Shown here: piece by piece, positions 2,160 through 37,638 of the stretch
Position numbering within the stretch: the first letter of the stretch is position 1
Layout: each line of letters begins with the position of its first letter
Source of the DNA: Sipunculus nudus
Taxonomy: Eukaryota; Annelida; Sipuncula; Golfingiida; Sipunculidae
Assembly: GCA_026874595.1 (NCBI GenBank)
Contig: CM049307.1
Location: 30,171,079 to 30,235,078, forward strand
DNA: 64,000 nt
Direction of reading: 5' to 3'
The notes under the pieces: model-generated
Told to the model about the DNA's origin: nothing
Databases searched by the model: none
Seen by the model: only the letters and a program-made list of their open reading frames with translations
Made by a program: the position numbers and the translations under genes

Positions 2160-4241
2160 ATGAGGCTGCTGCTGGTGGCGCTCCTCTGGCTGGCTACCCT
2201 GCAGCCAGGCCAGGGACAGCAGAGCGATTGTGACCTCACACTCCAAGACGTGTACGGCTTTACCCTCAGGGGGCTAGATGGAAGACCTAACGTTACGCTG
2301 GCCGACTACGCGGACACGGTCCTACTAGTGGCCAACGTGGCCACGTACTGAGGTGACAAATTAACACCTATAATCAAAGTTGAATCATGTATTTTGTTTG
2401 ATTTAGGATTAATTTCAATTGCAATTCAGTCATTTGCACTCCCTTTGCTTTTATGTTTGAATGACAGGGAATGTATTTCCAACAGCGGAAACCCAAACAT
2501 AATAATATATAATTTAGATTTTCTTTAAAAGATCGATATTTCTTAACTTTAATAAAATTTAATGTTTGAATTCGATAACACAAGTGTGTGTAGTTGACAT
2601 GGTAAAAATAAAAACACTTAAATAGAGCAAGATGAAAGTAATATGAATGTATATTTATCCGAGAAAATAAGATATAAATATGGTAAACTCCAAGCAAAGT
2701 CGACGGTACAGATGCACAGTTTGTTAAACAGAAGAACTGGTCATAAGTACACCTCATATACAAATCCCATAAGCAATACATGTGTATATTGATCTTCAGA
2801 AATTAAAAAAAAAAATATTTGTGTTCAAATAATCTGTATCAAGAATAAATCACATGGTATACCATGCAGCGATTATTGGAGGTGCTTAAATCATATTTTA
2901 AAGCTTGATATTTATAGCATCACATTTTCCCGTGTTCTATATGACTAAAATGTTAAGTCCTGTAAAAACGTTTTCATAAATGGCTGTTTTGTTTCTCCTA
3001 GTAATATTTTGTTGACGTATTTCTATATTGCTAGATTTCACCTATCAGTACAACTCAATGAATGCACTAAAAGAGTCCTATGCTGGTTGGCCGTTTGATA
3101 TTCTTGCCATCCCTAGCAACCAGCACGGTCTCCAGGAGCCCGGCACGGACTCTGAGATCCTGAACGGGATCCGCTACGTCCGCCCAGGAAACGACTTCCA
3201 GCCTAACTTCGTCGTTGCGGGCAAGCACGAAGTCAATGGGGACTCGGAACATGCGATGTATACATATTTAAAGGTGATGACGATATCTTTGTCAGTATAA
3301 TTTAAAATGCGAACTTAAAATAAAAAAAGGTCAGTCCTTCAGTGGCCTGACAGAGAGCACTCGCAAACTCTGATATATGGCAGTCTAAACATAGAGGAAA
3401 CAGATATTTTGGTCATTTTTGACAACTACCCACCGCCTACAAAATGGTTTCACTTAGAATAAGACATTCCATCCGTTTAAAAATGAAAGTTTATTTTTTA
3501 CCAACGGCCAACATGGTGTAAAACAGATTTCTTTATCACCCGGCATTGTGGGAAATTTCAATATACATTTATGTCAAATTCCTGACTGTATTCAAGTATA
3601 TCTAAATATATATGATATGTGATTGACAGTTAAGTCGTGCGAGGTAGGGAAAGACGGTGTTCAAGATATAGAGATTGGACTTACACTTTTATTTATACAT
3701 TAACATGTTTTCATGAGTGAATTTCCTCATTTATATTAAGATTATCTTCTGTGGAAGGAGATATGTTTTTGTGATAGTGTATAGTCGATCATTGCAGTGC
3801 ATGACTAGTGTCCATTCTATTTCTTCAGTTTTCCAATTTTACTTAAATAGCCCTATATGTACGGACTAATGACACCAAAGGCGTTAATTCATACGTCGTT
3901 TCCACTATTGAACTTAACATAATTTTGGCAAAACCTTTATTTACGTCTATGCAAAAACAAAATATGGAACTTCTGCAGTTTTCGTGATCTCTGTGTCTTT
4001 TATTCGTCAGGATCTGTGTCCTGGACCCCTGTCAAGGATCGGAATCGGGTCCCGTTTGTACTGGGATCCGATCCAGAGAGATGACATCACCTGGAACTTT
4101 GAGAAATTTCTCATCGACCGGGATGGGTTTCCCTTTAGACGATACGCTCCGGCCGTCGAACCAGAGACGCTCAGAGACGACATAGACTTTTTAATTCTCA
4201 CAACAGGTAGACCACAACAGAAAAGAAAAAGAAAAAATTAA
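2160..4241 (+). CDS. gpx3-like: GPx-1: secreted selenocysteine glutathione peroxidase (GPX3-like)
   Basis: Coding exons are 2160-2352, 3035-3273 and 4011-4241, with GT-AG introns in phases 1 and 0, giving 220 residues with Sec at 64 (TGA 2349-2351). GPx enzymes reduce H2O2 and organic hydroperoxides with glutathione or thioredoxin-like donors; this one should be extracellular. A hydrophobic leader (MRLLLVALLWLA) with likely cleavage near Gly19, and an N-V-T sequon at 44, support secretion. The catalytic tetrad is visible: Sec64, Gln94 (IPSNQHG), Trp172 and Asn173 (WNFEKFL). The ATG at 2160 begins the leader. Oddities: the residue after Sec is Asp instead of Gly (G|AT across the junction), and the C terminus gains a basic tail, QQKRKRKN. 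It is the most diverged copy. Family assignment is very sure; the exact subtype is inferred from the signal peptide. Confidence 0.92.
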
Positions 4242-4339
4242 ATCAACTATGGATTGGTCTTTCGTTAGAATATCAACTAACATTGGATTATCTAAGCATG
4301 GACCCCTCATCCTGTAGTTCTTGCCATGTTGCCCGGTTG

Positions 4340-4412
4340 GGATAGGACGCAAATGACGGGTTCACCGAAAGGTTGCGACACCTGGTGACTCCCTGATGAG
4401 GTAACGTGATCC
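4340..4412 (+). promoter_or_regulatory. SECIS element of GPx-1
   Basis: About 100 nt after the stop, ATGA (4353-4356) is followed 11 nt later by AAA (4368-4370) and then by TGAT (4394-4397). ATGA/TGAT can form the tandem G-A quartet, GGG/CCC and CACC/GGTG form the helix, and AAA lies in the apical loop. This matches the eukaryotic SECIS plan that recruits SBP2 for UGA recoding. The wider helix seen around the SECIS of copies 2-4 is not evident here. A polyadenylation signal AATAAA occurs at 4567. Confidence 0.82.
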
Positions 4413-4419
4413 ATTGGTC

Positions 4420-5562
4420 GTCAGTGCATTCAGCTGGTGGGTTGCGCCCTCTGTCCGCAGCCTAACTGAGGAATGGTTCATTTGCAGCAGGGTAATAGTT
4501 ACAGGAATAAAGAGGTTAAATAGACTGCTTTTGTTCTGTTTCACTAAAATTCATCACTAGCTTTATAATAAAAAAATACAAACAAACAGAACACTTACAC
4601 AACGCCTCCAAACAATGTTAACATTTTTTTTCCATTTTAAATATTTGAACGACATAATGGTTCCCTAAAGTAAAAGCTGACATATAATGGTTTGTTTTAA
4701 TCTTCAAAAGTGCATATCATGATAAGTACATAGGTATATACAATATATCTATGGTGCAATACTGTTTAACGAAAATGAATATCTAAAAATAATTGGTAAT
4801 TTTAAGCATACGCCAAGTGATCATTCTCCAGGTTTGACAAGTTGAATGGGTTATGCTTTTACAAAAATAATTAATGTCAGTGTACAAGGAAGCGACCACG
4901 TTTTCTAAACCTGTAAATAGGTAACATATTTACTTATAATATCGTCCCTCAAAAGCATATTTTTCCTGTAGTATACTAGTGTGTGAACTGTACGAGATTC
5001 AGCAAAGTCGAAAAGCGGCATATAATAGCGTTGCGGTTTGTGCGGAAGAAAAATATTGTTTATTTAGAGAGTCTCGCCATGAACAATATGTTATGACGGT
5101 AGACATGGCTCCGGAGGGCAGGAAACTCCATGCAGCTATTCAAACCCCATTTCATTATAAATCGGAACATATGTGCGCAAAACGGATATCTTAAGAAAAC
5201 CGTGTTCTGGGGGTATTTCCATTTCCACAAGTACAATGGGGGGGGGGGGGGGGGGGGAGATTCTAGTTACTCTAGTAGCATACGTTTTTTATACCTCAAA
5301 GGAAAAAGGAATACACAAACCCACATGACGTATTTATAAAGGGCTTTTGAAGAAATTGCCTCTGACGCCTGTTGTAACCTTAAATTGTCCACCTCCCCCA
5401 TGCACACCCTCAAGTTTAAACATGGTTTCAGATTATTCTGTAAAATATTACACAAAGTACACATCACCTGCAGTGGGTAATTATATGTAAAAAAGGCATG
5501 GTTCTCAGGCACTTTTTTCAGAAATCACTGCGGGCGGACGGTATTATATTGTTTACCTTTTT

Positions 5563-5641
<79 letters not shown>

Positions 5642-5979
5642 TTCGATAAAAAATCTCACATGGTCAGGGAAAAGAATTAAAATAACAATTTTTTTACTAA
5701 ACAGGTAAAAGTACTACATAACAAGTCACCGTATCAAAATTGTATTATTTTATTTTCTTGAAAAGTGTTTCATATACGGGGGGTTAAAATTGACGCGGGC
5801 GGTGCCTGAGAACCATCCCTTTTATTTTTCGGGCCTAAGGCAATGAGCACGAGTTCAGGTCAAGCATCGGGGGGGGGGGGGTGAATATAACCGTACTCTT
5901 GTAGTGATAGTAAATTGATACCCCAAAAGATTTTCGTACCCCACATAACTGATCTAAAGGATATATTTATGTATGTATG

Positions 5980-6010
<31 letters not shown>

Positions 6011-6022
6011 CATATTATAAAC

Positions 6023-6064
<42 letters not shown>

Positions 6065-7780
6065 GCAAAACTTTCCCAAGAAGAACATATTATAGCATCC
6101 TTGACCAACCCCGGCCTTAATTTACAGTCAGTCCAAAAGTTGTTTTACATTCATTTTAGTGTACAGAATTTTAAATCTATTACTTTCTTTCACATTAATA
6201 AAGTTTAAGATTGTTCATGCAAAAGAAGTAATATTTGATTTTAAAACTAAGATTGGTGAGTTTGTCCTTCATAATTCCTTTTACAAACATATTTACAACC
6301 AGTAAAAATTCTCTTTTTTTGACCTACTCAATCTTATATAGAATCTGTGTTTAAACAATTACGCTCAAAGGTATTAAAATAAAATCCATTTAAAGAATGT
6401 GATGGACACGCAAGTCATGCTTAAGAAGATTGTTGAAGTACCCAGATTTATCTCCTCGAAATATGATAACCTGGTTCGCGAGTTGTTCAACTATTATTGA
6501 TCCGATAATAAATATGACTTCTATTTCAATTTTTGGAAACAGATCACTTCCTAGTATAATTAAAATGCCTCTGTAAATCATGGAAAAAAAGATTTCTGGT
6601 CTTAGAGCTAGAAATGAAAATGTCCTCGAATAACTCTAACAAGTAACTTTATTCAAGCCAAACCCCGAATATCAAAAAGTGTCTTAATTCCGTCTGCATG
6701 CAGAAACTCTGAATCTGCCGGTCATTGGGTCACAATTTACAGTGTATTGGTTGATGCTGGATGTAGGATAGTTACGTCAACATTAAATGTCTGTCGAAAT
6801 GTTCCATCGGGAAAAAGACAATTACAACAAGAGACTGTAGTTTATTTATAAGCATGCAAGGGGCGTTTTAAATGACAGTTTTTTTCTCAGAACATCATAT
6901 CTTAATTTCTACTGCATTGAACATTGATAATGGACCTTTATTTTGTCATATCTTGTTATACAAACAGTTCCTCATGGGTTGTGCTAAGACTGATGATATG
7001 CTATTTGTATTATTCGTGATGTGTTCCAGTTATAGTTTTAGCTCAGTAAGGCAACGTAAACATATCAGTAACCGAAGTCTCACATAAACCGCTTCTTTCC
7101 TCGAAATTAGTTGAAGAAAATAAGATCCTTAATTTGGCAAATTTTATATTAAGTTGTAGAAACTTCCGATGTTGACTCTTTCATATTGGCTCTCATTGGT
7201 CGTTTGAGCTAAAGGACGGAATTCAAAGGCATTTGCATTGATTCATGGATATATTTTGGAGTACACATCTTATATGTTATGTTGTACTGTATATTTGTGT
7301 ATATATTTTTGATTACACATTTTAAATTTTATGTTGTACTGTTATTTTTAGATGTATGGAAAGTGTACTGTTAAGAAAACAACACTTGTTAATGTCAAAG
7401 TTTATCAAATTCCTTGTTATTAACAACATAAAGCGACCTGAATTTGAGACTTAATTATGTGAGAAATAGAAGATAGTCAAGGTTTACTTGGAAGTGTATC
7501 ATCGCCTATTTTTTCTAATATGTAGATAAAAATTCAATACACTTTAAAAACGGTTATTGGCCATAACTCGAGAGTTTATTCTGTGTCATTCAGAATCACC
7601 AAAGTAAATTCTTGTTATTGTCTGTGATAATATGCTAAATAATAATAATTACATGTCATGTGTTTGAGAAATTTGCACTTTTCTATGTGTCGTTGTGCTA
7701 CTATAATTAATCTATTATGAAATCATAGATACACGTGCGGTAACACTCATGACCTAATAAAGCTCTCGCTGAGGTCACCA
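4420..7780. other. Intergenic, GPx-1 to GPx-2; microsatellites only
   Basis: No gene is supported. Contents: the GPx-1 3' end with AATAAA at 4567, poly-G at 5238-5257, a (TA)n-(TG)n compound microsatellite at 5566-5641, poly-G near 5871-5881 and interrupted (TA)n at 5980-6062. The 4979-5194 open frame (71 codons) has no recognisable domain. Confidence 0.55.
5566..5641. repeat. Compound (TA)n(TG)n microsatellite
   Basis: Uninterrupted TA dinucleotides change to TG dinucleotides near 5617. Confidence 0.95.
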
Positions 7781-7784
7781 ATGT

Positions 7785-7839
7785 CACGTGCTGGTCTGAC
7801 GAAAAAACCCACCTCTACCCTAGGGTTATTTTATATAAG
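7785..7839 (+). promoter_or_regulatory. GPx-2 promoter: E-box and TATA box
   Basis: CACGTG (7785-7790) lies 47 nt upstream of TATATAAG (7832-7839), which is 60 nt before the ATG at 7892. The sequence from TATA to ATG is nearly identical in GPx-3 and GPx-4, so the promoter is intact although the gene body is broken. Transcription would be expected to start near 7860 by TATA geometry (inference). Confidence 0.7.
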
Positions 7840-9009
7840 GATTTCCCATACTGTCTTGTTCCACAGAGCGACGACTGTGCCAGGCTTCCCCATGAAGCTC
7901 TTGTTGGCGCCGCTCCTTTGGCTGGCCACACTGAGGTCAGCCCACGGACAGCTAGATTCACACAGCACGTGCGACCGACCATCCACAGACATATACGGCT
8001 ACTACCTATCAAGTCTAGATGGAACAAGAAACATTACACTCGACAGCTTCAGGAACCAAGTAAAGTACCTCCGTGTCAGTCTGTCTGTCGCAATTTTTTT
8101 ACCTGGATCATGATCTAAGAAGCGATTCGCCCTTGGACATTTGAGAGTTTATTAAACTTTGTAGTTGATTCGGTTGCAGATCTTGACAAAGAATCAGTTC
8201 GGGCGTATTTGTGCATCTGTTACCAAACATGTATCTGTCCTTGTGCTGTCATCTTTGGGAGGAAGTCGGTACTAATGTCAGTAGCACCTGAAGTGCTGCC
8301 ATGGCAGGGTTTACACCTTTGGCATGGTTTGTACCCCTATGCACCATGCAATAAACTATTTGACTATAGGACAGGGTGTGTTGGCTATTAACGTGGATTC
8401 CCTGCACTGTTTGCATAGCAATCAAGGCACAAAGTCCAAGAGCAATTTTGAGCTGTGAATTGCACCCTGCTCCAAAGATCACATTAAATGATTATTCAAT
8501 TGAAATATTAAACATAAGTTATTCAACAGATTTATCACGACTGACTTAATATCACAGGTTGAGAACTGTTCTCTATTCATATACTGTGTTATTGCAAATT
8601 TATAAGTAATGTTTGATTTCCCATGGATCTGCAAACTGCAGTTGAAATCCCTTTATTATGATCAAATTAAAATGATCATAAAACTGAAACATTGATTATG
8701 AAATATAATTTATCTCTACATGTAATAAAAAAAAAATTACCATTATTATGATAATGCATTATGCATAGTGGTTTTCCTGTAGACCTTAAAGTCTCCATGG
8801 ATATATAAACATCAGAATTACTGATTATATTATTTTTTTAAAATTGATAGCCAGTTGTATTCATTTAAAATATCTTTATTGTGCCCATTAATGATCTTTA
8901 AAATAATAATGTCAGAGGTGTTGTTCTTTGGCCAGACTAAATTTGATATTTAAATATTAAAATACCCCTTCAAACGACAAGTTATGTTATAAGTTTTGAG
9001 TTATATCTT

Positions 9010-9600
9010 TTTAGCGCAGCTGACTGTAAGTCATCTGAGCTATAGTGATCACTCTTCGTCCGTCGTCCGTCTGTCTGTCTGTCCGTCTGTCCGTCTGTCC
9101 GTCTGTATGTCCGTCTGTCCGTTTACCAGGCACAAATCGTAACCGCTGGATCTAGAATCTTGTAACTTGACATTCTGAGAGGTCCATGAAAAATCTCCTT
9201 GGAAACCAGAAATTAGGTCTCTGTTACCCATATCCTTCGAGCTATGTGGCCCCAAAGTACCCCGCAGATATTCAAAAAACTTCATACAAAAACTTCAATG
9301 TCTCATTAACTGCATCACTGATGGTCATGATTTTTTGCATACATATTGATCATGAGATGTTCCATCAGTTCCTATAGACTGGTGGCGCCATCTGTATTTT
9401 TCGATTTTTTTAATGATTTTTTTTCTCTATTTTGGAGACCTTTAAAAATGTGAACATCTGTTAACAGGGCACAAATCGTAAAGACTGGACCTAGAATCTT
9501 CATTCTTTACACAGTGAGAGACCAATGAAAAGTCTCCATGGAAACCAGAAATTAGGTCTCTGTTACCCATATCCTTCGAGCTATGGGGCCATCAATGATT
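9010..9600 (-). mobile_element. Repeat-family F1 fragment with (CCGT/CTGT)n, reverse orientation, in GPx-2 intron 1
   Basis: It starts with TTTTTAGCGCAGCTGACTG, related to the reverse complement of the right ends at 48640-48660 and 58760-58797, followed by CCGTCTGT-type repeats (9058-9124). Within it, two ~75 bp direct repeats (about 9168-9243 and 9515-9592) contain the same GAAACCAGAAATTAGGTCTC core. Inferred to be a truncated copy of the same non-autonomous element family. Confidence 0.6.
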
Positions 9601-9610
9601 CATCATGTAA

Positions 9611-9776
9611 CCAATTAATAGATACAACCAAGCTTACTTCAGACTTTCCATACATATTTACTAAAACTACACTATATATATACTAAAAAATATACCAATT
9701 AATAGATACAACCAGGCTTACTTCAGACTTTCCATATATATTTACTAAAACTACACTATATATATATACTAAAAAT
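9611..9776. repeat. Tandem duplication, ~84 bp unit x2
   Basis: CCAATTAATAGATACAACCA begins a unit at 9611 and, with one change, again at 9695. The two units differ at only a few sites, so the duplication is recent. Confidence 0.9.
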
Positions 9777-11651
9777 TAAAGGGAATACCAATCATGATCA
9801 GTAACTTTGAGCACGTTTCTGCATACTGTATGTGATAATTTTAAGCCTATATTACCCGACGTATTGTTAAAATTTGCATTATTATTTTAACTCGGATATA
9901 AATACTGGTGTATTACAAATATATAACCTGGTGCTAAGTTAATTAACAATTGAAATAGCACCAGTTTATACATTTGAATATACCAACATTGTATCTATAA
10001 TGATATTTTGCCTTCCTATATATTTAATTTAAATGGAAAATAAGGTTAATTACATTTTATATATGCCTATTAATTGGACATGTTTATACATACAAAAATA
10101 TTTTTATGGTAAATGTTTCCAAAGCCTTTATAGTCTTTATACAGTAATTCTTATTCATACAAATGTAACTTTATGCTTTATAAATGTTCATCATTTGTCC
10201 AGGGAGAAACTGTAATATATGCTTTATAAATGTTCATCATCTGCCCAGTGACAATGTCCATTTTGCAGTGATTATAAACAATTTGTAAGGTATATGGGTT
10301 TTTCACAAATTCAGTTAACTGCATTTACTTGACTTACTGCTCTGCTTGTATCATAATTGTGCAATCAATCAGTTGAGGGCTAGCCTATACACATTCTCCT
10401 CTAACTAACTAGTCTGCGGCTATGGCTTTGGGGTGCAAACGATGCCGAGGGTGCAAATCATGCCTTGATAGCTCTTCAGCCCCTACTCACATATGTTACT
10501 TATTAAGAATATTCGTCCATGAAACATGCATATAAATGTTAATTGCCTCCCTTTTGTATAATTTCGATGCGATGTGCCTTAAATTGCAAGAGATCTTAGC
10601 TAGTTAATGTTATACTCACTAAATGGTGATCCTTGCCCTCGAACTTGCGATTGGCTGTTGCAGAAAAAAAAGCAAAAGTTTGTTACGTCAGACATAGCAT
10701 TGCTTAAGTCTTTTTGACCTGTGCAACTTAAGCGACACCTTAGATGACTACAGTCGACCCGATTGGTCATCATGGTCACCTGGTTGTAGTCTGTATGGTC
10801 GGCCCAAGGTCATCGCCTCTTTCATGCCGCAGCGTGTTTTCAAAATTTCAAAATTTTGACGACAGCTTGTTTTAGGCGAATTAGTGTAACTTAACTTCAA
10901 CTGAAAAATAGGTGCTGTCATAATCTGTCTTTAGGTAACATATTGGAGCTCGGGTATATACCATTTTACTATGTTGGTTCAAGAAAATTGTCCCGTCCGG
11001 CCTTAATTATACAACTAAATTAGAGAGTGACCTATATTTTCTGTAAAGCGCTGATACAACATTATAATACTTTCATACGTTACAAATCACCAGCGCTTTC
11101 GATCGAAGGTATTCTCCATTAGGATATTCTTTCCATGTCCTTGACTTTACCTATAAATATGACACAAACGGTCTTTGTTTTAATATTTCCTGTTAATTAA
11201 GTGTTAACCATGATTATCCCTGCGATCCTCTCTTATATGGTTTTCCGGTTTCGTTTGAAACCTAATGGAGGATGTAAGTGGAATCTGTAGCGGCAATATC
11301 GAGTACGTAAAATGACGAGATTTCGGCACTTCATTTTATTATTCGTACTTCCTTCGCCCTAGACCTGCGTGGTATCTTATGTCTACAGACGAAAGATAAA
11401 AGATAAAACTCAACCATATCCAAAATTTTTGTGTCATGATCTATAATTTATCTGACGTAAACACTATATAAACACTGCATGGGCCATTTTCATTCCATAA
11501 TATGTCATGACTTTAACACATGTTCATGATTGCACATACCTATACTGCTGATCTGGTATATTTCAGCCTTCACCTATCAGTACAACTCAATGAATGCACT
11601 AAAAACCTCCTACGACGGGCAGCCATTTGACATCCTTGGTATCCCTAGCAA

Positions 11652-12349
11652 AATTACGCTCTTTACACAGCGCTTTAACTATAGGCCTAGTACCTATATG
11701 GTAAGCGCTGTTTGTTATGACCGCGTATCCTGAATTGCTACACCAGAGGGGAGCACTGTATTTTTGTCCAATCACGTGAGACCTTGTGCTGGAAGACACT
11801 GCCAAGCGAGGAATACACGGAGCCAATCATGTTCATTTCGTTTTGATTGACAGCTCATCGCCCCTGTAACCGTCTGAACAGGCCACAGGCTCAGAGAGAA
11901 TTGCACTAGACGTGGTTTGCAAGGGCCTTGGGCACATAGGATTCCCGGCCGGTGAGCTGTAATTCAAACGAAACGTAACAACAAAGGCTGCTTGCACACC
12001 TCGCTGGCTGGTTTCAGTTCTGCAGACAACAGATACATGGCTACGCTAACACAGTCATAATGTCATAATCGAATCGGTCGATCATGCGAGAATGCAGAGG
12101 GAGCAATTAAAATTCAACCGTAAACTCACAGGCGGCGCTTGAAGCGCAGCTATGGGCGGGGCCAGGATGCCTGTCGAGTGTTTGTTTATTGGCATCTGGT
12201 TGGCTGCTTGTCGCATCATACGCACGTATTTTTCAGCGGACAACGAACCGCCATCTGGTGTCTAAATATATCATAAACGGTCAAAGCTGGCAGCGTGAAA
12301 ATCAGTTGCTTCTTTAGAAGCGCAAGATTTCCGCTGCCTCGGGAGCGTA
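11652..12349. mobile_element. 698 bp insertion disrupting GPx-2 exon 2
   Basis: The exon sequence ...CCCTAGCAA breaks off at 11651 and resumes with TAGCAACATGCACG at 12350, so TAGCAA (11646-11651 and 12350-12355) flanks the insert as a 6 bp direct repeat, consistent with a target-site duplication. TACGCTC near the left end and GAGCGTA at the right end form a 7 bp inverted repeat. Near the left end an imperfect palindrome (CAGCGCTTTAACTATAGG against CCTATATGGTAAGCGCTG) can fold. There is no long reading frame, so it is non-autonomous. The superfamily is not clear. Confidence 0.75.
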
Positions 12350-12508
12350 TAGCAACATGCACGTCTTCAGGAACCGGGTTCAAACGCCGAGATCCTGAAC
12401 GGTCTGCGCTACGTTCGTCCCGGCAACAACTATGTGCCAAACTTTGAGCTCTCGGCCAAATACGAGGTGAACGGAGACAACGAACACAATATGCACACTT
12501 ATCTTAAG

Positions 12509-14525
12509 GTAAGACATCAGAATCAGAAGTTAGACAATGTTAGACACGCACATCAGATCCACACAGTTATAGGAAATCACCTTCATTTAATTAAGCCACG
12601 TCCGTATGGAGGGAAGGCTGATAGGGGTTGATGAGTTTATTTCTATATCAATATTTGGTTCAAAACTTTTTTGTGGATGGAGTTTCTCCCCCAGAGTGTA
12701 AACCGTTCAATACAATTATCTTTCTTTTCCCCCTTTTTTTCTTCTGTCTGAACTCAAACATAACTGATTTTCAAAAAACTGACTTTTTCCCTATAATATT
12801 AGTGATATAGGTGACACATATGCACCTGGTATATTCATATTTCACTATGTCCTAATTTCCAAGGTCGTGCACTCCACAACCACTTCCCCATTATCGCTCA
12901 GGTGCAAACATTTAGTTGAAAATAAGACTAAGACGTCAAGTCAACACAGTTTTAGAGGAATCATCTTCACTTATTAATTTAAGATATTACTTAGACGTCG
13001 ATTCCCAATTAGTTCAAAGGTAGGTCGTAGGAAATGTCTATTGTGCATGCCTTTCTTACCCTGCACCAAAACTTGAGAATATTCTTCTTTAAGATCTTAA
13101 TTATTGCAAAACCTTAAATATTCTAGAAAAATAAAATATATGCGAGTCAAAAGTGCTATATATCCAAGTGGAACCGTATTGTCCAAGTGGAACCGTATAA
13201 ACATCTTTCATTAATACTCTTACCAGCAATCATCTCCAGACATTTCATTCAAAAAGAGTAATTGTATCAAATGTTATACTTTTGTCATTTTGCCTTTCAT
13301 TTTTTTGTATTATTCAATAAAGCAGGTATCTCTAAAAAATGCGCAATATAGATTTCTTCAAGTTACGAAACGGTAAAACCTGTGTGATGATATCACCCAT
13401 TGAACAGAAAAATATAGTCTTAGTGCACAAGTGGTCATATTTTACAGGTATATGTTTTAACCGATGTGTATCCGTATGGTATATTAAAGGAAAGTCTTTA
13501 TAGGCAGGTGTTCTTATTTGACAGATGGCCTTTAGACAGGCTCCACTGTTTTACACTTGGCTTTCGGTGACATCCAAACTTTGTTTTGCGGTGACTTTTC
13601 ACACTTATCCCGCCTTGTTACATTTAGATCATCTACACTTCCATTATATATAGCAACATTCTCGCTTCAACTAGACCCATTTAGTTTAAGTAAGCTCATC
13701 TATAACTCCTTTACGGCAACAATCTCATTTCAGCTTGTCCCATTCAGTTAAAGAGTGATCATCCACGCTTTCATTGAAGTAACATCCTTACTTCTGATTC
13801 GCAATTTTCAAGTAAAGTAATCGACAATTATTTTTAGATAATGTGAACCTTTACGCTGTAGTTCCCACATCTAAATTGTTGTCACAATAAGTTTAATAGC
13901 ATGAAATGTTTTCACATAATAGGCTTCATTTTCTGCCTGTATATGTTAACTATCAGTTTAATATCATCAACACAACTTGTGCACAGATAAACACTGACAA
14001 TTTTGAAGCAACCATGTACATCCTTTAGGAAATAAGGAAATATCCAAATGAGTGATATATTGGACGGTTATGAGTACCAATCAAAATTGTTAAATTATAG
14101 ATATATTTATTGGCTTTAAGAGAGGTCATAGATCTGTAAAAAAAATAACGAAATAGCGATATTTTGAATTTTGACCGACGTATGAAGAAACATATGAGGA
14201 AACCAAAGTAATAAAATAACATGCTCCGGTTAATGATAACAGTGAACAGTAAGCCCTCAAAGAAAATAAAAAAATACATTAATACTGATTGGCTTTAAGG
14301 CGACCGCGTTCATCCAAAACAGAATGTATAAGAGAGTGAGGGATCTTTATGCAACAAATACCAATAAACACCACCAAAAAATGACAAAATCAGAGTAATA
14401 TACATCTTCTTTATACCATCCCCATGCAGCAACAAAAGAAATAAGAGCAAAATGAAATATTTACTCACTTGAAGGGAACATAGACAAGAAAATACTCAAA
14501 TTAACATTTATCTGTAAGAATTTTC
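12509..14525. other. GPx-2 intron 2, upstream part
   Basis: AT-rich intron sequence. A short direct duplication of CAAGTGGAACCGTAT occurs near 13167-13200. No coding or RNA gene seen. Confidence 0.5.
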
Positions 14526-14529
14526 AACA

Positions 14530-15258
14530 ATATAAACAAGAAACAAGACGACCAGAGACTCTGACCAAGTTAGAAAAGACAGAAAATCACCTTTGAGATA
14601 TTAGTGAATGTCATAAGATGTACAAGTTGCAAAAGGATTCCTACAAAACTGTGGCCTGTAGAATCCTATATGTAAGACGCAAGAACCAGCAAGCTGGCAA
14701 AATTGAGAACAACTGACAAACAGACAGACACATTGACAAAGTGAAACAAGACTGAGACGAGATGATTTGACAAAGTTATGGAGAAGACTCAGACGAATAA
14801 AATAAGCTACAATTCATAAATGTAATTCAGGTTTATAGTTTCGGAGATAGGGCCAAAATCCAAGCGGTTATTTTCCGAAATTGGTAAATCACTTGACAGC
14901 CAGACAGACACACTGACAAAGGGACACAAAGATGAATTAAGATAACTAAACCATGCAGAAGACAAAGGGGATGAAAATGAGTTTATGTTTGTGAAGATAG
15001 GACTAATATATACAAAGTTAGTATGAAAATAAAATTACTTTTTTGATGACCTTGACCTTTGACCTATGTTGACGGAAAAACAATAGGCTTCCATTTTGAA
15101 TTTCAATCTACCCTGAAAGTTTCAGATCGTATGCTCCAAAATTGTGGTTAGGAGAGAACTGACAATCAAACACACAAACACACCCACAAACAGACATATA
15201 CGCGACTGACCAACATGCTTGCCGAAATCTTCGTATTTCCGGCAAGCAACAAACCTAG
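14530..15258 (+). mobile_element. Helitron-like element in GPx-2 intron 2 (3' end seen, 5' end uncertain)
   Basis: The proposed 3' end has a hairpin, GCTTGCCG (15217-15224) with CGGCAAGC (15240-15247) and inner AAAT/ATTT pairs, followed 8 nt later by CTAG (15255-15258). A hairpin just upstream of CTRR is a Helitron 3'-end feature. Upstream the segment carries repeated GACAGACAGACACA-type phrases and a GACCTTGACCTTTGACC phrase, as in other repeat families of this window. The left boundary is a guess, and the base after CTAG is A instead of the usual T. Confidence 0.4.
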
Positions 15259-15639
15259 ATGTGATTCCCAACCCTCCGACATGACTGAGTAACTACAATG
15301 TGAATCATTCAATATGCCAAAATAAATGCTTGTTCACAAATTAAGGAGACCTATGTACATCATTGTTTTTTCGTGTCTTGTTTGGTTTTACAGTCAGCGT
15401 GTAACGGTTCGCAACCACGTATAGGCTCTGTGTCTTCCATGTACTGGGATCCAATCCAGAGAGACGACATCACGTGGAACTTCGAAAAGTTTCTGATTGG
15501 ACGAGATGGTTACCCTTACTACCGTTTCGCGCCAAACGTGGAACCCGAACAGCTCCGAGAATCTATCGATTTCCTCATCGCAAATACAGGATCGCCATAA
15601 AATTTTTACAATATGTCAGGCAGTTGGTCCAAGCAAGTG

Positions 15640-15780
15640 GCCTGGATGGGGACAGGACCAATGACGGGTCCACCGAAAGGTGGTGACACCTGGTGACACC
15701 TGGATGGGATAACGTTTTCTGCTACAGTCTTCAGTGCATTCAGCTGGCAGGTGGCGCCCCCAGCCTCCAGCCCATTCGGA
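15640..15780 (+). promoter_or_regulatory. SECIS-like element of GPx-2 with outer helix, and poly(A) signal downstream
   Basis: ATGA (15661-15664), AAA (15676-15678) and GGAT (15702-15705, where other copies have TGAT) keep the SECIS geometry. The outer stem CTGGATGGG (15642-15650) can pair with the CCCATTCGG region at 15771-15779 using wobbles. AATAAA follows at 15814. It no longer has a Sec codon to serve in this copy. Confidence 0.7.
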
Positions 15781-15829
15781 TGTACTTCATGGCTCCAGAG
15801 AATGTAATATGTAAATAAACACCTCAGCC

Positions 15830-19140: not shown

Positions 19141-19178
19141 GGCCTAATAAATCAGGTCCACGATGAAGCTCCCTGCAG

Positions 19179-19234
19179 CACGTGCTGACACGACAAAAAA
19201 TAAACACCTGTGCCCACGGGTTATTTTATATAAG
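19179..19234 (+). promoter_or_regulatory. GPx-3 promoter: E-box and TATA box
   Basis: CACGTG (19179-19184) sits 48 nt upstream of TATATAAG (19227-19234), which is 60 nt before the ATG. Spacing and flanks match GPx-2, and the TATA-to-ATG segment matches GPx-4 as well. Confidence 0.75.
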
Positions 19235-19286
19235 GAGTTCCCAGACTGTCTTGTTTCACAGAGCGACGACTGTGCCGGGCTTCAAC

Positions 19287-22263
19287 ATGAAGCTCCTGTT
19301 GGCGCCGCTCCTGTGGCTGGCCACACTGAGGTCAGCCCATGGACAGCCTGAGCCCTCCAGCTTGTGCGAGGAAGTACCAAATGATATTTACCGATACTAC
19401 TTTTCAAGTCTGGATGGAACGAGAAACATCACGCTTGACAGCTACAGGAACCAAGTTCTGCTGGTTGTCAATGTGGCAACGTACTGAGGTAAGCTGTCTT
19501 ACTTCCCGTTTATTTGTCTGCGTATCTCAAACTGTTATTACTATTTCTGTTTCTATTAAAACTGTGACAAATATTACGATGTAAATTTTAACAAGAAAAA
19601 AATATTTTAAGGGTAACACGAAGAAATGTAACTTCACATATTTAAATGTAACGTCACAAATGTAAATGTTACTGCACAAATTTATAAAAATACACTTACC
19701 GAATTTGTCCAAACCCGACATGTGTCACTTTCAACAATAAAAGCCAGCAAAATACAAATATGCACACCTTTTGAAAATTTGAAATAATAAAAAAAAAAAT
19801 GGTTCAAACAGAGAAACAAAATTTTCTGTCAATGTAAATTATATGCTAATTTGAAACTATTCGAATTGACAAAAATACGAAAGTGAGACATGAAAATTAA
19901 ATTGAAAAATTTATTATTTTTAATTTAACGGTTAAAATTGGGAAAATATAGTATGGAAAAAATTTATTAACTAAGAAGCTTCAACCCAATAGATATATGT
20001 CTACGCCATAGGAAAGAAAGTTTCGAACACGTTCTGCAAACACAGTGCTGCTGGGCGCTCGACCGTGCCCTGAACAAGTGACGCGCCAGAATCCGGAGAA
20101 GATGCTGAATGAACACCAAAATATAATTGATTCTTACTTGGTTCATTTCCGAAATGCCCTGAAAATTTCATGATCTTCCTTAACGACTGCTGAGTTATGT
20201 TGTGAACAAACACACACACACACACGAACGGGAAGCAACGTATACCTTCCTGGAGGAGTCAATTGTTCTAACTATGAACCCTATGGCAACTGAGCAAAAC
20301 AGTTGCAAGCAACCTATCAAGTAACCATTGACAATGTGAACAGTCAATCACCTTAGAATCCAAAAATTTGCATATTTTGGGCAAGTCTTACCAACAGAAC
20401 ACGTGCAGTGTGTACCAGTATTCCTGTCCGCATGTTTTCCCCCGAGATATTTTTTTATACAAAGGAATCAGTATATAATGCTCGGCCAAAGGTTGCGGGA
20501 GCTATTCCGCCGACTGCCGCGTGAATAATAACGTGTTATCTTGAAATAAATTCGCATGAGACGAACAATCGAAAATAAGGTAAAAAAAACTTCACAGTGA
20601 TATTACGATATATTTATCACTGCAGAACAGAGGTGTCATAATTCCAGCTGATGACGTCAGTCGATGCGACGTCATACGCGACCGACCTTTGTGACGTCTT
20701 TGTGACGTCACTATTCTCTTATAAACAGCTCTTGCAACCATAGCCTTATGTGAAGTGTTTTGGGGTTCATTAGCATAATTAGGTCAAGTGGCGAGCATAA
20801 GCCCTGTGGTGGTTTGATAAAATACGACAGCATGACAGCGCCACCTAGATTGTCTTTATGAAAGCTTCAATCGGATCTTAAATTTACAAGAGTCCTTGTG
20901 CAACCAATTTCGTCTATTTCACAATGATGTATTTTGTGTATTTTATAGGTTTCACCTATCAGTACAACACAATGAATGCACTAAAAACCTCCTATCAGGG
21001 ACAGCCATTTGACATTCTTGGTATCCCTAGCAACCAGCACGGTCTTCAGGAACCGGGTTTAGACTCCGAGATCATGAATGGTCTGCGCTATGTTCGTCCT
21101 GGCAACAACTTCGTGCCAAACTTTGAGCTCACTGTGAAAGACGAGGTGAACGGGGACGGTGAACACGAGATGTACACGTACCTGAAGGTAAAGACACCAA
21201 AACCCCCGCGTCTGTCTGATTAAATAAACTCATAGCTATGAGCCTTGTTAACTGAGATAATATTAAGGGCACATTCCAAAGGAATGACGAGAGAAGCCCC
21301 CCCCCCCCACCCCCCATATAAGGACACCCGGACAGCCCCCTCTGTAATTATGACAAACATGAGAATCCCTCCATGGAGTATCAACAATTATTCCTATCAG
21401 ATATTATAAAATATATTTTTGTTCCCCGCCATCTTCTACGAAGGCGCCGTCGGCGGGGGACATAGAAATGGTGAGCGTCCGTCCGTCCGTCATTGTTAAC
21501 GCAATGACGTAAAAACAAATTAACTTACAGTCACACTACTAACACCATTAATTCAACTCATGAAAGGCTAGGTCATGTTCGACTATTCATGACCTTGATG
21601 CAGATTTCAAGACCATAGAGTCGTCCATGCTAAAATGATGTTAACGCATTAACCTGAGAAGAATTTGAGACACAGTCACAAAACATGCAGCATTGATACA
21701 CCTCATGAGGAGCTAGGTCAAGTTCAAATGTGGATTAGGTTGATGCATTTTTAAAAGCACATGCGATCATGCTAAAATGATATTAAAGCAATAACTGGAA
21801 GGGAATTTGAGGTGTAGTCACCAAATGTATCGTATTCATAAATCTCATGAAATGCTAGGTCTAGTTCGAATATGGATGCCCTTGACGCATTTTCAAGGTC
21901 ACAGAGGCGATAATGCTAAAACAATGTTAACGGAGTGCTGACAGAGTACTGACCATGTTTACCAACATATTCAATACAGCCAAGAGAATAATACAAATAA
22001 CACCGCTGCGCAAAAATGTAGACAATAATAAAGCAAGATGTCAATCTCTTTTGCAGTCCGCGTGTCCGGGTACTCGTTCCCGAATTGGGTCTGTCGGTTC
22101 CATGCACTGGAATCCAGTTCAGAGAGACGACATCACATGGAACTTTGAGAAGTTTCTGATTGGACGAGACGGTTACCCCTACTTCCGTTTCGCTCCAAGC
22201 GTGGAACCCGATGAACTCCGGGAGTCCATTGATTTACTTATTGCCACCACAGGACCACAATAA
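19287..22263 (+). CDS. gpx3-like: GPx-3: secreted selenocysteine glutathione peroxidase (GPX3-like)
   Basis: Coding exons are 19287-19488, 20949-21187 and 22057-22263, giving 215 residues plus stop, with Sec at 67 (TGA 19485-19487). The leader MKLLLAPLLWLATLRSAHG predicts secretion, with cleavage near residue 19-20. Motifs: N47-I-T sequon, NVATY-Sec-G, Q72-Y-N-x-MNALK, Gln97 in IPSNQHG, QEPG, YVRPG, PNFEL, EVNG and Trp175-Asn176 in WNFEKFLIG. These complete the GPx catalytic tetrad. Cys27 and Cys150 are shared with the other copies and may pair (inference). In the usual PCNQFG motif the Cys is Ser here. Exon phases (1, 0) equal those of the other copies, so the genes arose by tandem duplication. 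It is the best-preserved unit, with TATA box, SECIS and AATAAA (22501) all present. Confidence 0.94.
20652..20725 (+). promoter_or_regulatory. CRE-like cluster with TATAAA inside GPx-3 intron 1
   Basis: Two palindromic TGACGTCA sites (20652-20659, 20703-20710) and two near matches (GACGTCAT 20668-20675, TGACGTCT 20692-20699) lie within 60 bp. TATAAA (20720-20725) starts 10 bp after the last site. This is the architecture of a CREB/ATF-type promoter or enhancer, about 225 bp upstream of exon 2. Function is inferred. Confidence 0.5.
21421..21945 (+). mobile_element. Helentron-like repeat with ~145 bp tandem core in GPx-3 intron 2
   Basis: The left end GTTCCCCGCCATCTTC...GGCGGGGGACATAG forms a terminal hairpin like that of the element at 39197. 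It is followed by CCGTCCGTCCGTC and about three diverged tandem units of roughly 140-148 bp, each starting with a GCTAGGTCA-GTTC phrase (about 21568, 21714, 21853). No 3' hairpin with CTAG is found, so it is probably truncated or diverged at that end. Confidence 0.5.
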
Positions 22264-22331
22264 ACCTTATACGACACGTCAGGCAGTGGAAATAGTATTG
22301 ATTAAATATATATATATATTTCTCTTTTGCG

Positions 22332-22465
22332 CGGATGGGGACAGGACCAATGACGGGTCCACCGAAAGGTGGCGACACCTGGTGACACCTTGATGGGGTA
22401 ACGTTTCCTGCTGGTCTTCAGTGCATTCAGCTGGCAGGTGGCGCCCCCTACCTTAAGCCCATCCG
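22332..22465 (+). promoter_or_regulatory. SECIS element of GPx-3 with outer helix
   Basis: ATGA (22350-22353), an 11 nt helix strand, apical AAA (22365-22367) and TGAT (22391-22394) fit the SECIS consensus. GGTC-CACC can pair with GGTGACACC. Outside this core, CGGATGGG (22332-22339) is exactly complementary to CCCATCCG (22458-22465), giving an enclosing stem. AATAAA lies at 22501-22506. Confidence 0.87.
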
Positions 22466-22678
22466 GATGGTCTTCATGGCTCCAGAGAATAATATATGTT
22501 AATAAACACCACCGTCCTGTAATATTGTATGGAACTTTTTTATGCCGTGTCATAAGGTGTATGCTAAAATATGTGCGTGTGTGTTTATGTTGGCATGATT
22601 TAATTCTACTAGATAATGCTGGGAATCTCGTTAGAAGAATTTACTAATTGTTAAAATAGAATCCCTAGGGTGTTACCT

Positions 22679-22681
<3 letters not shown>

Positions 22682-22731
<50 letters not shown>
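22682..22731. repeat. (TA)n microsatellite
   Basis: About 25 uninterrupted dinucleotides just downstream of the GPx-3 polyadenylation site. Confidence 0.95.
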
Positions 22732-22732
<1 letters not shown>

Positions 22733-22832
22733 GGAGTGTGTCACCAAACTGGTGTATGGCTCTTACTTTTTGCATAAATAAGACATAATATAACATCCTT
22801 ACACTCTTTCTTTAAGAATGATATAAACCAGT

Positions 22833-23020
22833 GTCGGATCAAGAGTTGGTCGAGGGTGTCCGGACCCCTCCTTTGGAGTTGCAACAGCGTTTTTCATGGT
22901 TTTAAACAATTTTTTTCCTACCTGGATTCCTCCTTTTCTGGATCTTGCGACCTTTCTTCAGTTTTTCTTATTGACTTCTGAAACCCCCCTTTTCCAAATA
23001 ATCTCCATTTCCTAGATAAG
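22833..23020 (-). mobile_element. GGGGCGGATCC-family relic, copy C (diverged)
   Basis: The segment GTCGGATCAAGAG, GGTGTCCGGACCCCTCC, GTTTTAAACAATTTTTTTCC and GACCTTTCTTCAGTTTTTC follows the same order as copy B at 27267-27519, with many substitutions. It is the oldest-looking of the three copies. Confidence 0.55.
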
Positions 23021-23029
23021 CTGTTGTAA

Positions 23030-25670: not shown

Positions 25671-25854
25671 AATCGCCATATTTGTCAGATTTGCCGTTGG
25701 GGTAAATGAAGGTAAAAGCTTGAGTGCTTGAACACTATCACAAAAAAAATCAGGTGCACAATGATGCTGGAATATAGCACAGACGAGAATGGGTAGTCCT
25801 CATAGACGGCAGGCAAATTTAGAACGAAAACCCTTCTTGGTTTTGATGGGATTG

Positions 25855-27160
25855 GCATAGGCCTAGTCGGTGACATCAGGTGTGATGGGATTGACATAGG
25901 CCTAGTCGGTGCCATCAGGTGTGATGGGATAGACATAGGCCTAGTCGGTGACATCAGGTGGGATGGGATTGACATAGGCCTAGTCGGTGACATCAGGTGG
26001 GATGGGATTGACATTGGCCTGGTCGGTGACATCAGGTGGGATGGGATTGACATAGGCCTAGTCGGTGACATCAGGTGGGATGGGATTGACATAGGCCTAG
26101 TCGGTGACATCAGTTGGGATGGGATTGACATAGGCCAAGTCGGTGACATCAGGTGTGATGGGATTGACATAGGCCAAGTCGGTGACATCAGGTAGAATGG
26201 GATTGACATAGGCCTAGTCGGTGACATCAGGTGGGATGGGATTGACATAGGCCTAGTCGGTGACATCAGGTAGGATGGGATTGACATAGGCCAAGTCGGT
26301 GACATCAGGTGTGATGGGATTGACATAGGCCAAGTCGGTGACATCAGGTAGAATGGGATTGACATAGGCCTAGTCGGTGACATCAGGTGGGATGGGATTG
26401 ACATAGGCCTAGTCGGTGACATCAGGTGGGATGGGATTGACATAGGCTTAGTCGGTGACATCAGGTGGGATGGAATTGACATAGGCCTAGTCGGTGACAT
26501 CAGGTGGGATGGGATTGGCATAGGCCAAGTCGGTGACATCAGGTAGAATGGGATTGACATAGGCCTAGTCGGTGACATCAGGTGGGATGGGATTGACATA
26601 GGCCTAGTCGGTGACATCAGGTGGGATGGGATTGACAAGGGCCTAGTCGGTGACATCAGGTGGGATAGGATTGACATAGGCCTAGTCGGTGACATCAGGT
26701 GGGATGGGATTGACATAGGCCTAGTCGGTGACATCAGTTGGGATGGGATTGACATAGGCCAAGTCGGTGACATCAGGTGGGATGGGATTGACATAGGCCA
26801 AGTCGGTGACATCAGGTAGAATGGGATTGACATAGGCCTAGTCGGTGACATCAGGTGGGATGGGATTGACATAGGCCTAGTCGGTGACATCAGGTGGGAT
26901 GGGATTGACATAGGCTTAGTCGGTGACATCAGGTGGGATGGGATTGACATAGGCCTAGTCGGTGACATCAGGTGGGATGGGATTGACATTGGCCTAGTCG
27001 GTGACATCAGGTGGGATGGGATTGACATAGGCCTAGTCGGTGACATCAGGTGGGATGGGATTGACATAGGCCTAGTCGGTGACATCAGGTGGGATGGGAT
27101 AGGCATAGGCCTAGTCGGCGACATCAGGTGGGATGGGATTGACATAGGCCTAGTCGGTGA
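25855..27160. repeat. 39 bp minisatellite, ~33 units
   Basis: The unit contains GATGGGATTGACATAGGCCT followed by AGTCGGTGACATCAGGTGG. Because 39 is a multiple of 3, the minus strand keeps one frame open for 486 codons (27145-25685) as 33 repeats of MSIPSHLMSPTRP with variants. The plus strand is also open through the typical unit (DIRWDGIDIGLVG), but without start codons. Variants fall in ordered blocks: units 6-10 (a TKP unit, two standard units, an FYL-TWP unit, an SHL-TWP unit) recur as units 18-22, so larger segments were duplicated. Low complexity, openness on both strands and no gene-like flanks make a minisatellite more likely than a protein gene. The unique 55 residues after the array show no known domain. 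Confidence 0.92.
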
Positions 27161-27266
27161 CGTCTGACAATAAAATCAACCTTTCTGACTAACCAAATTG
27201 TTCAGTTTATGCATTTTAATATGGTTCTATAGGAAATAAACTTACATTTACTATATATTATGCAAA

Positions 27267-27519
27267 CAGAAGCGGATTCAGGGGGTCCGGACCCTCCCCC
27301 CCCCCGCCCCTTCCTTCTTTTTTTTCAGCCGATGCAGCCTTTTTTAAAGGTTTTAGACAAATTTTTTTGCGGACTGGAACCCCCCCCCCTTTTTTTTCCT
27401 GACCCGGGGAATGGGACCCCCCCCCCCCCTTTTTTCCAAACCCGGAGACCTTTTTCAGTTTTGTCATTAGTCCTCCAATGTTGGATCCCTTCTTTTCCTA
27501 AATCCTGTATCCGCCCCTT
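27267..27519 (-). mobile_element. GGGGCGGATCC-family element, copy B
   Basis: Left end CAGAAGCGGATTCAGGG, right end CCTAAATCCTGTATCCGCCCC. It is the reverse orientation of copy A at 329-559, with matching interior (GGACTGGAACCCC, GTTTTAGACAAATTTTTTTGC) and long C runs. TGCAAA flanks both ends, consistent with a target duplication. There is no transposase. Confidence 0.65.
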
Positions 27520-27786
27520 GCAAATGTTTGGAATTTTTAAGGGAGTAATAACACATGAACATATTTATGAAATTGCTAATAAGCTATCAGAAAGATTATA
27601 AAGTTAAAGATACTTAATTTCAGTCTGACACAATTGTAAAGACTTTCTGACATTCTATTCTTATATTGAAAGTACGACTCCGCCCACAGAAATCACGTGC
27701 ATGTCAGCATTACGGCATTTCAAGGGGGTCAGTTTCAGTGGTGACGACATGGTCATTGGGCTGACCTGCGCGTGATACCATGAGGA

Positions 27787-27889
27787 CACGTGATGTGATA
27801 ACTAATAACGAGAGATAATACGGGTGTTGAACGCAGGTGCTGAATTTACGAAATTTCACCACCTGTCTCCTATAGATGTTGTATATAAG
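27787..27889 (+). promoter_or_regulatory. GPx-4 promoter: E-box and TATA box
   Basis: TATATAAG (27882-27889) is 60 nt upstream of the ATG, as in copies 2 and 3, and the sequence between is nearly identical. CACGTG occurs at 27787-27792 (95 nt upstream of TATA) and at 27694-27699, further away than in copies 2 and 3. Confidence 0.72.
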
Positions 27890-27941
27890 GAGTTCCCATA
27901 CTGTCTTGTTCCACAGAGCGACGACTGTGCCAGGCTTCACA

Positions 27942-29662
27942 ATGAAGCTCCTGTTGGCGCCGCTCCTGTGGCTGGCCACACTGAGGTCAGCCCATGGACA
28001 GCCCGAGCCCTCCAGCACGTGTCAGCCAACAACTGGTGATATTTACAGTTACTCTTTCCCGAGTATAGACGGGACTAGAAACATCACGCTTGACAGCTAC
28101 AGGAACATGGTCCTCATGGTTGTCAACGTTGCAACGTACTGAGGTAATAATATCATTGTTTTTATTCTTTCATTTATGACTATCTCAGTTGTGATCTATG
28201 GTTTATTGTTAAAACCTCATTTTTATCCTACCAAGTCTGTGACATAACCATTGTGTGGTCATGTCGAAGACTTGGGAGTATGAAGATGTCAAAACATATA
28301 TAAAGAATTAACAGTTTTCATTACAATATTTTAATATTGCCCGGATAAGCAGCAATAAGCACTAGCGCATGTGATGCGCATGTCCAACGCATGTTACTTA
28401 AATAACTTACAAGTAGATGGCAGTAACAACACTATAAATGGAAACACTGCGCCAAGAATGGTTAACAGCGCCACCTATCGGTTAAAAAAATGAGTTTTTT
28501 TATAGCTATTTTATTTACTTGAGTCGACCAAACGTACCAGCGATATCCTGCGTGATGTGATGATTTCTTTTTCCTTTTTCTTCTCTCTGGATCATCTTAT
28601 TCGAATGTGGTTGTTCACCAGAGCTTGTAACCACGGCTACCATGTTGCATGTCTGGGCTTTTCGTTTCATATTTTATATCTCAATTGGTTAATGAAATTA
28701 TCGCCTGTCAGGTCTTATATTTTTTTAACAGGTGTAACAAAACTGCTGAATCATTGCAGGGTTCGCCTACCAGTACCCCTTCATGAATGCACTAAAAACC
28801 TCCTATGATGGCCAGCCATTTGACATCCTTGCCATCCCTACCAACCAGTTTGGTCTCCAGGAACCAGGATCCGACGCGGAGATCGTGGACGGTGTACGAT
28901 ACGTGCGTCCTGGGAACAATTTCGTGCCAAACTTTGAGCTCACCTCCAAGGACGAGGTCAACGGAGATGGCCAGAATCCCATGTATACTTATCTTAAGGT
29001 AAGATACAACTATATTATCTTAAGATAAGGTACAGCTACACTTATCTTGAGGTAACCTACAGCTTCACTTATCTTAAGGAATTCACTTATCTCAGTGTTA
29101 GACACATCTGCCCCTCTAGAAATAAATCAGAATCCACTCATCTCAAGCTAAGACACGTGTTTTCTTATCTTAAGTACGATTTGCACGTGAGGTTTAGTTA
29201 GTTTAAATTAGCGACAGTTACCTAAGATTTGAACCTCATGCAAGGCAAATCTATCTAAAGCAAGATAGCATATTTCTGTGCTCCCTTAGCCAATTATATG
29301 CCTGGACGGATCAAATATTAAATTTAGCGGTCGACAGTAATAAACATCACTCTTACTCCACATGTGACACTTACTAAGCTATAGGACTTTAATAAGTGCA
29401 CTGCAACCTCTAGAGGTGTGACATATTACTTCATTGAGCCGCTTTTATATTTTAGTCAGCGTGTGCCGGTACGAAGGCCCGTATAGGTGCGCCGTCTTCC
29501 ATGTACTGGTCTCCAGTCTTGAGGGATGACATCACGTGGAACTTTGAGAAGTTCCTGATTGGACGGGATGGTAAACCTTACTTCCGCTTCGCCCCTAGCG
29601 TCGATCCGGAGGATCTCCGTGAGACAATCGACTACTTGATAGCAAACACCGGATCATCATAA
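27942..29662 (+). CDS. gpx3-like: GPx-4: secreted selenocysteine glutathione peroxidase (GPX3-like)
   Basis: This is array copy 4, not the mammalian GPX4 type. Coding exons are 27942-28143, 28760-28998 and 29456-29662, giving 215 residues plus stop, with Sec at 67 (TGA 28140-28142). The leader is identical to GPx-3 through residue 20. Tetrad: Sec67, Gln97 (in IPTNQFG), Trp175 and Asn176. Exon 2 starts GFAYQYPFMNALK, and the end is a short TGSS. It has the most compact introns of the array (616 and 457 bp). Exon 3 lacks an early ATG, so simple ORF calling misses it, but it is fully open from the acceptor TTTTAG (ending 29455) to TAA. SECIS and AATAAA (29912) follow. Confidence 0.94.
28989..29174 (+). 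repeat. Degenerate tandem copies of the exon 2 donor sequence
   Basis: CTTATCTTAAGGTAAGATAC spans the GPx-4 exon 2 / intron 2 border (28989-29008). Related phrases recur at 29013, 29041, 29069, 29085, 29136 and 29164. The copy at 29041 keeps a usable-looking donor, CTTGAG|GTAACC (GT at 29052). Using it would retain about 53 nt and run into an in-frame stop near 29026-29028. Confidence 0.75.
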
Positions 29663-29719
29663 TTTTGTACATGAAGTCAGGCAGTTTAAACATAAATATA
29701 TATATTTTTTCTCTGTTGC

Positions 29720-29855
29720 CCGGATGGGGACAGGACCAATGACGGGTCCACCGAAAGGTGGCGACACCTGGTGACACCTTGATGGGGTATCGTTTCCTGC
29801 TGGTCTTCGGTGCATTCAGCCGGCAGGTGGCGCTCCCTACCATGAGCCCATCCGG
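29720..29855 (+). promoter_or_regulatory. SECIS element of GPx-4 with outer helix
   Basis: ATGA (29739-29742), AAA (29754-29756) and TGAT (29780-29783) define the core. CCGGATGGG (29720-29728) is exactly complementary to CCCATCCGG (29847-29855), a 9 bp enclosing stem. A (TA)n tract and AATAAA (29912-29917) follow. Confidence 0.88.
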
Positions 29856-29910: not shown

Positions 29911-29913
<3 letters not shown>

Positions 29914-31620: not shown

Positions 31621-31630
31621 GTTAATGACG

Positions 31631-37638
<6,008 letters not shown>

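Follow-up and report, generated by a model that had tools for sequence, protein, structure and literature searches.

The closest described counterparts of the locus analysed here, a tandem array of glutathione peroxidase (GPx) genes in a 64,000-nucleotide (nt) stretch of the Sipunculus nudus genome (assembly GCA_026874595.1, contig CM049307.1, positions 30,171,079 to 30,235,078 of the forward strand; below, the window, with coordinates counted from its first letter), are a group of GPx3 genes in the scallop Chlamys farreri and, in other invertebrates, selenoprotein clusters with decaying members. PMC7824116 lists five C. farreri GPx3 genes, all with two introns, and terms this a GPx3 sub-family expansion. 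According to its Table 1, CfGPx3-2, 3-3a, 3-3b and 3-4, which are counted as SeGPx, share the number 41509 and lie at positions 1,587,475 to 1,610,027 (22.6 kb), which in our own reading of these listed positions forms one cluster of four, the fifth gene being located elsewhere. The words SECIS (selenocysteine insertion sequence), scaffold and pseudogene are absent from the main text of the paper, and its sole "tandem" belongs to tandem mass spectrometry. The proteins listed for the four clustered genes have 145 to 221 amino acids and may be truncated models. The same paper reports two introns for three and one intron for two of the five GPx3 genes of Patinopecten yessoensis, and its Table 2 counts two GPx3 genes in L. 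gigantea and three in C. gigas. Section 10 of PMC3473315 lists invertebrate selenoprotein clusters (deiodinase, Gpx, MsrA and SelU) in which some members are incomplete and presumed inactive, among them a Nematostella Gpx pair with one member devoid of a SECIS and of a complete reading frame. Like the scallop cluster, the array in S. nudus comprises four close GPx3-like genes, each with two introns, a comparison of gene count, intron number and positions only; with the clusters of PMC3473315 it shares tandem selenoprotein paralogues of which some are incomplete. The crayfish CqGPx3a/b of PMC8872551, reported there as secreted selenocysteine (Sec) GPx3 with predicted type 2 SECIS elements and N-glycosylation sites, differ in being cDNAs of two isoforms with C-terminal extensions instead of a genomic array.

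At this locus we find four tandem units on the plus strand, from 2160 to about 29.9 kb, each laid out as a three-exon GPx-type gene in tblastn and direct-repeat analyses. Judging from the sequence, they very probably represent an array of classical GPx3-like secreted Sec glutathione peroxidases with three intact copies (1, 3 and 4) and one pseudogene (copy 2), in which a Form 2 SECIS would drive Sec insertion. The initial annotation's proposal, a tandem GPx family of secreted type that contains Sec, with three intact members and one decaying member, is supported by exon structure, Pfam, similarity to PDB entries, coding constraint and conserved 3' elements. A tblastn search of the window (E up to 1) with the copy 1, 3 and 4 proteins matched all three exons of all four units, for copy 2 with a partial match to exon 1 and two separate pieces of exon 2, which confirms the four units but with exon 2 of copy 2 interrupted. 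The only other tblastn matches in the window (four, with E of 0.27 to 0.85) gave no further GPx copy. The direct-repeat analysis recovered the same exon blocks together with a common 3' block. In same-strand blastn at E up to 1e-3, the units match one another only in the 3' untranslated region (3'UTR), in the exons with their borders and, for copies 2 to 4, in the region upstream of the gene; no match between units falls in an intron. A TATAAG string, read from the sequence, starts 55 to 58 nt upstream of the ATG in all four units.

The three intact copies share one gene structure. Copy 1 consists of exon 1 (2160..2352), which runs from the ATG of a signal-peptide-like start to the Sec UGA at 2349-2351 and ends in CGTACTGAG before the donor gtgaca, exon 2 (3035..3273), which begins with ATTTCACC after ctag and ends in TTAAAG before gtgatg, and exon 3 with the stop codon (4011..4241). 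The corresponding exons lie at 19287..19488 (Sec UGA 19485-19487), 20949..21187 and 22057..22263 in copy 3 and at 27942..28143 (Sec UGA 28140-28142), 28760..28998 and 29456..29662 in copy 4, with the stop codon again included in exon 3. In copies 1, 3 and 4, respectively, exon 1 measures 193, 202 and 202 nt and exon 3 measures 231, 207 and 207 nt, with exon 2 at 239 nt throughout. All six introns have GT/AG borders, and the identical intron phases claimed initially hold in these exon models: intron 1 is in phase 1, one base past the UGA, and intron 2 is in phase 0. The joined exons are in frame in each of the three copies, their sole internal stop being the UGA at the catalytic Sec position, and the mRNAs would be spliced as the exon models are drawn. 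Because the gene is spliced, the lack of an early ATG in exon 3 of the last copy, to which the initial annotation had attached weight, is irrelevant. Upstream of copy 4 lies a 39-bp minisatellite (25845-27161; 33.8 copies, 94% matches) that ends about 0.8 kb before the ATG; one of its forward frames reads as a 13-residue repeat with 5 stops, and the other two contain 59 and 67 stops.

Copies 1, 3 and 4 match the Pfam GSHPx family with 92, 103 and 103 bits (cut-off 27; E of 2e-26, 6e-30 and 9e-30). Compared with PDB entries by phmmer, a comparison made with copy 3, the predicted protein scores highest with GPx6 (161 bits), GPx3 (155) and the epididymal GPx5-type enzyme (155), ahead of GPx1 (125), GPx2 (117) and the GPx4 entries (52 to 66). 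The likeness to vertebrate plasma GPx3 (and GPx5/6) extends over residues 30-193 of copy 3, which align with GPx3 (2r37) without a gap, including the Sec position (Gly in that construct) and the NQ and WNF motifs; the tail past residue 193 differs and falls outside the alignment. Within this aligned region lies the oligomer-type loop, a stretch missing from monomeric GPx4/7/8-type enzymes, and the gapless alignment therefore indicates that copy 3 has retained it. The catalytic tetrad of these enzymes consists of Sec, Gln, Trp and Asn, and the motifs that carry it are kept in copies 1, 3 and 4: the UGA in NVATYUG, NQ in IP[ST]NQ and WN in DITWNFEKFL. In copy 3 these positions align with GPx6, GPx3 and GPx5, whose structures show Cys or Gly in place of Sec. 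By inspection, the protein starts MKLLLAPLLWLATLRSAHG and MRLLLVALLWLATLQPGQG look like signal peptides and are then followed by an N-x-T site. The protein of the intact copies would be secreted, glycosylated and oligomeric and would reduce peroxides with thiols. Its assignment to the GPx3/5/6 group rests on the PDB similarity scores of copy 3, and invertebrate classical GPx are described in PMC8614756 as changing clade depending on the method.

The coding sequences of the intact copies are old and constrained. Synonymous divergence (dS) is as high as 1.81 between copies 1 and 3, 1.51 between copies 1 and 4 and 0.89 between copies 3 and 4, which points to old copies, and the corresponding ratios of nonsynonymous to synonymous divergence (dN/dS) are 0.144, 0.215 and 0.169. 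Amino acid identity is 66% between copies 1 and 3, 60% between copies 1 and 4 and 78.5% between copies 3 and 4, and the initial description of copy 1 as diverged and of copies 3 and 4 as well preserved stands, with copy 1 intact all the same and copy 2 broken. Exon 3, which lies downstream of the UGA, has a dN/dS of 0.14 to 0.16 in three of the six copy pairs, the three pairs with copy 1 being saturated. Three of the four copies thus combine an in-frame UGA with constrained coding sequence past it, and to these three the Sec UGA initially ascribed to all units has to be restricted, as the end of exon 1 that held it is gone from copy 2. A maximum-likelihood tree of the four copies alone leaves the order of copies 2, 3 and 4 unsettled (support of 60 for copies 3 and 4 together), and the highest identity is found between copies 2 and 3 (0.819).

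All four units carry a SECIS-like element in the 3'UTR, as proposed in the initial annotation, and its core motif (AUGA...AAA...UGAU) is present 3' of every copy. The cores lie at 4353..4397 in copy 1 (poly(A) signal AATAAA at 4506), 15661..15705 in copy 2 (AATAAA at 15814), where the 3' quartet is GGAU in place of UGAU, 22350..22394 in copy 3 (AATAAA at 22501) and 29739..29783 in copy 4 (AATAAA at 29912), all on the plus strand, and the core motif occurs exactly four times on that strand of the window, once per copy. Past the stop codon, all four units follow the layout AUGA, 11 nt, AAA, mini-helix, arm and NGAU, which lends itself to a Form 2 drawing with AUGA, GGGU/ACCU and CACC/GGUG arms, an AAA bulge, a GGUG-gcga-CACC mini-helix and UGAU. 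For comparison, Form 2 SECIS elements are described in PMC2746813 as having the AAR motif in a terminal bulge and a kink-turn with the GA quartet. Over a 148-nt block of the 3'UTR, copies 3 and 4 are identical at 140 positions (95%) and differ at 52% of their synonymous sites, a conservation that constraint seems to explain best, though gene conversion could contribute. The same block of copy 1 is only 71 to 74% identical to the other copies, yet the positions of AUGA, AAA and UGAU are kept. In a template scan of both window strands, the four GPx elements rank first to fourth among 23 matches; the template was built after the motif had been seen, which makes this ranking descriptive, and the weight of the scan lies in the placement of all four elements just past a GPx stop codon. 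Of 48 pair cells in the proposed structure, 46 hold, compared to 20.8 to 58.3% when the partner is slid. The 3' elements fit a Form 2 SECIS and would function as such.

Several results weigh against this assignment. Ten shuffles gave 283 template matches (28 per window compared to the 23 real ones), of which five equalled or exceeded the weakest of the four elements in stability. In copies 1 and 2, the top-scoring template relied on a GA a little 3' of the one in the core given above. The slid-partner control favours a structure that had itself been derived from these sequences, a column-shuffle control does as well, so that it fails to set the structure apart from chance, and there are no compensatory changes in the proposed pairs among the four elements. 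None of the four 94-nt segments adopted a SECIS fold when folded without constraints. Searched as a whole, the window had no Rfam match at gathering thresholds and no SECIS among the 71 matches with E up to 10, which are mostly microRNA models on AT-rich simple repeats. When the 3' regions were searched by themselves, SECIS_1 was found in only one of the four, below its gathering score, and in none of copies 2, 3 and 4. This sub-threshold match, a full-length alignment at 4344-4410 of copy 1 (13.6 bits, gathering 35, E of 7), places AUGA, AAA and UGAU as in the Form 2 drawing. Other Rfam families found in the four 3' regions are unrelated and all below their gathering scores.

These results leave a little room for the idea that translation of the intact genes stops at the UGA and yields short proteins, or passes it without Sec, with the 3' element conserved on other grounds, for instance gene conversion. 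Such conversion could explain why copies 3 and 4 are 95% identical there, and the fold of the element finds no support in free folding or covariation and weak support in Rfam. However, we consider this reading very unlikely in view of the constraint on exon 3 downstream of the UGA and of the retention of AUGA, AAA and UGAU in copy 1 despite the low identity of its surrounding block. That all four copies are pseudogenes of a decaying array, with the UGA a true premature stop, as the broken copy 2 and the meaning of UGA in the standard code might suggest, is even harder to credit given that the only early in-frame stop of copies 1, 3 and 4 falls exactly on the catalytic Sec position, that their splice sites and remaining frames are intact, that dN/dS is 0.14 to 0.22 and that the 3' element is conserved above synonymous sites.

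Sec insertion at the UGA seems the best reading of the gene anatomy in the light of the known biology of SECIS, SBP2 and eEFSec as summarized in PMC2746813. The Form 2 SECIS would recruit SBP2 and eEFSec, and the UGA would be read as Sec. The UGA lies 240 nt (1 + 239) upstream of the exon 2/3 junction, farther than the 50 to 55 nt of the distance rule for nonsense-mediated decay given in PMC4911915, and selenium shortage should thus expose the mRNAs of the intact copies to this decay, with the proviso from the same source that the rule fails to predict all selenoprotein responses.

Copy 2 is a pseudogene, having lost its Sec-coding end and taken up an insertion in exon 2. Its exon 1 remnant (7892..8061, plus strand) matches the other copies up to 8061 and then ends, with about 32 nt lost that included the Sec codon and the donor site; no counterpart of this lost end turned up in 7801-15600, where the best candidate has 13 mismatches in 32 positions. 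Exon 2, as delimited by tblastn and direct repeats, is split into a first part (11567..11651) and a second part (12350..12508, which lacks 1 nt close to its start) by an insertion of about 0.7 kb (11655..12349). The insertion has imperfect 18-nt inverted ends (72%) and is flanked by the near-match repeat TAGCAAAAT / TAGCAACAT (8/9 identical by eye), features that suggest that it is probably a DNA transposon or a miniature inverted-repeat transposable element. Exon 3 (15394..15600, with the stop codon) is open and has a dN/dS of 0.146 compared to copy 3 and 0.162 compared to copy 4, and the inactivation was therefore probably recent. Copy 2 has also kept its upstream region, which resembles that of copies 3 and 4, as well as a SECIS-like element that is nearly intact. 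In this respect it differs from the incomplete member of the Nematostella Gpx pair, as it is the Sec codon that was lost here and not the SECIS-like element. We would give next to no credence to the idea that copy 2 still gives rise to an RNA, non-coding or chimeric, which tunes the Sec supply of its neighbours by competing for SBP2.

Judging by the published accounts of the scallop GPx3 expansion and, since 2012, of decaying selenoprotein paralogues in invertebrates, the array is not novel in kind, and it leaves the existing picture unchanged. Its value lies in being a tidy case of selenoprotein turnover after tandem duplication, with three constrained copies and one decayed copy whose SECIS-like element has outlived its reading frame. 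It also illustrates concretely why gene annotation should take selenoproteins into account. The initial annotation had expected automatic gene calls to truncate or miss all copies, and misreading of the Sec UGA is indeed plausible as a general problem of selenoproteins. How far it reaches depends on the pipeline, since PMC12822975 reports vertebrate selenoproteins as widely misannotated but RefSeq as right in 77% of cases.

The surroundings of the array contain a few further features. Adjoining it on the minus strand are two exons of a LITAF-like zinc-ribbon protein (31600-33260), whose joined pieces match Pfam PF10601 with an E of 1.4e-23, the exon joins being putative. No Pfam family was matched by four other long open reading frames of the window (E up to 0.1). 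On the plus strand, 750-1000 contains a decayed THAP domain interrupted by two stops (Pfam PF05485, E of 4e-8 with X at the stops), probably a remnant of a transposon or of a THAP gene. By eye, a tRNA-like stretch at 32160-32270 looks like a short interspersed nuclear element, and a 180-bp tandem repeat (4 copies, 95% matches) occupies 39283-40008.

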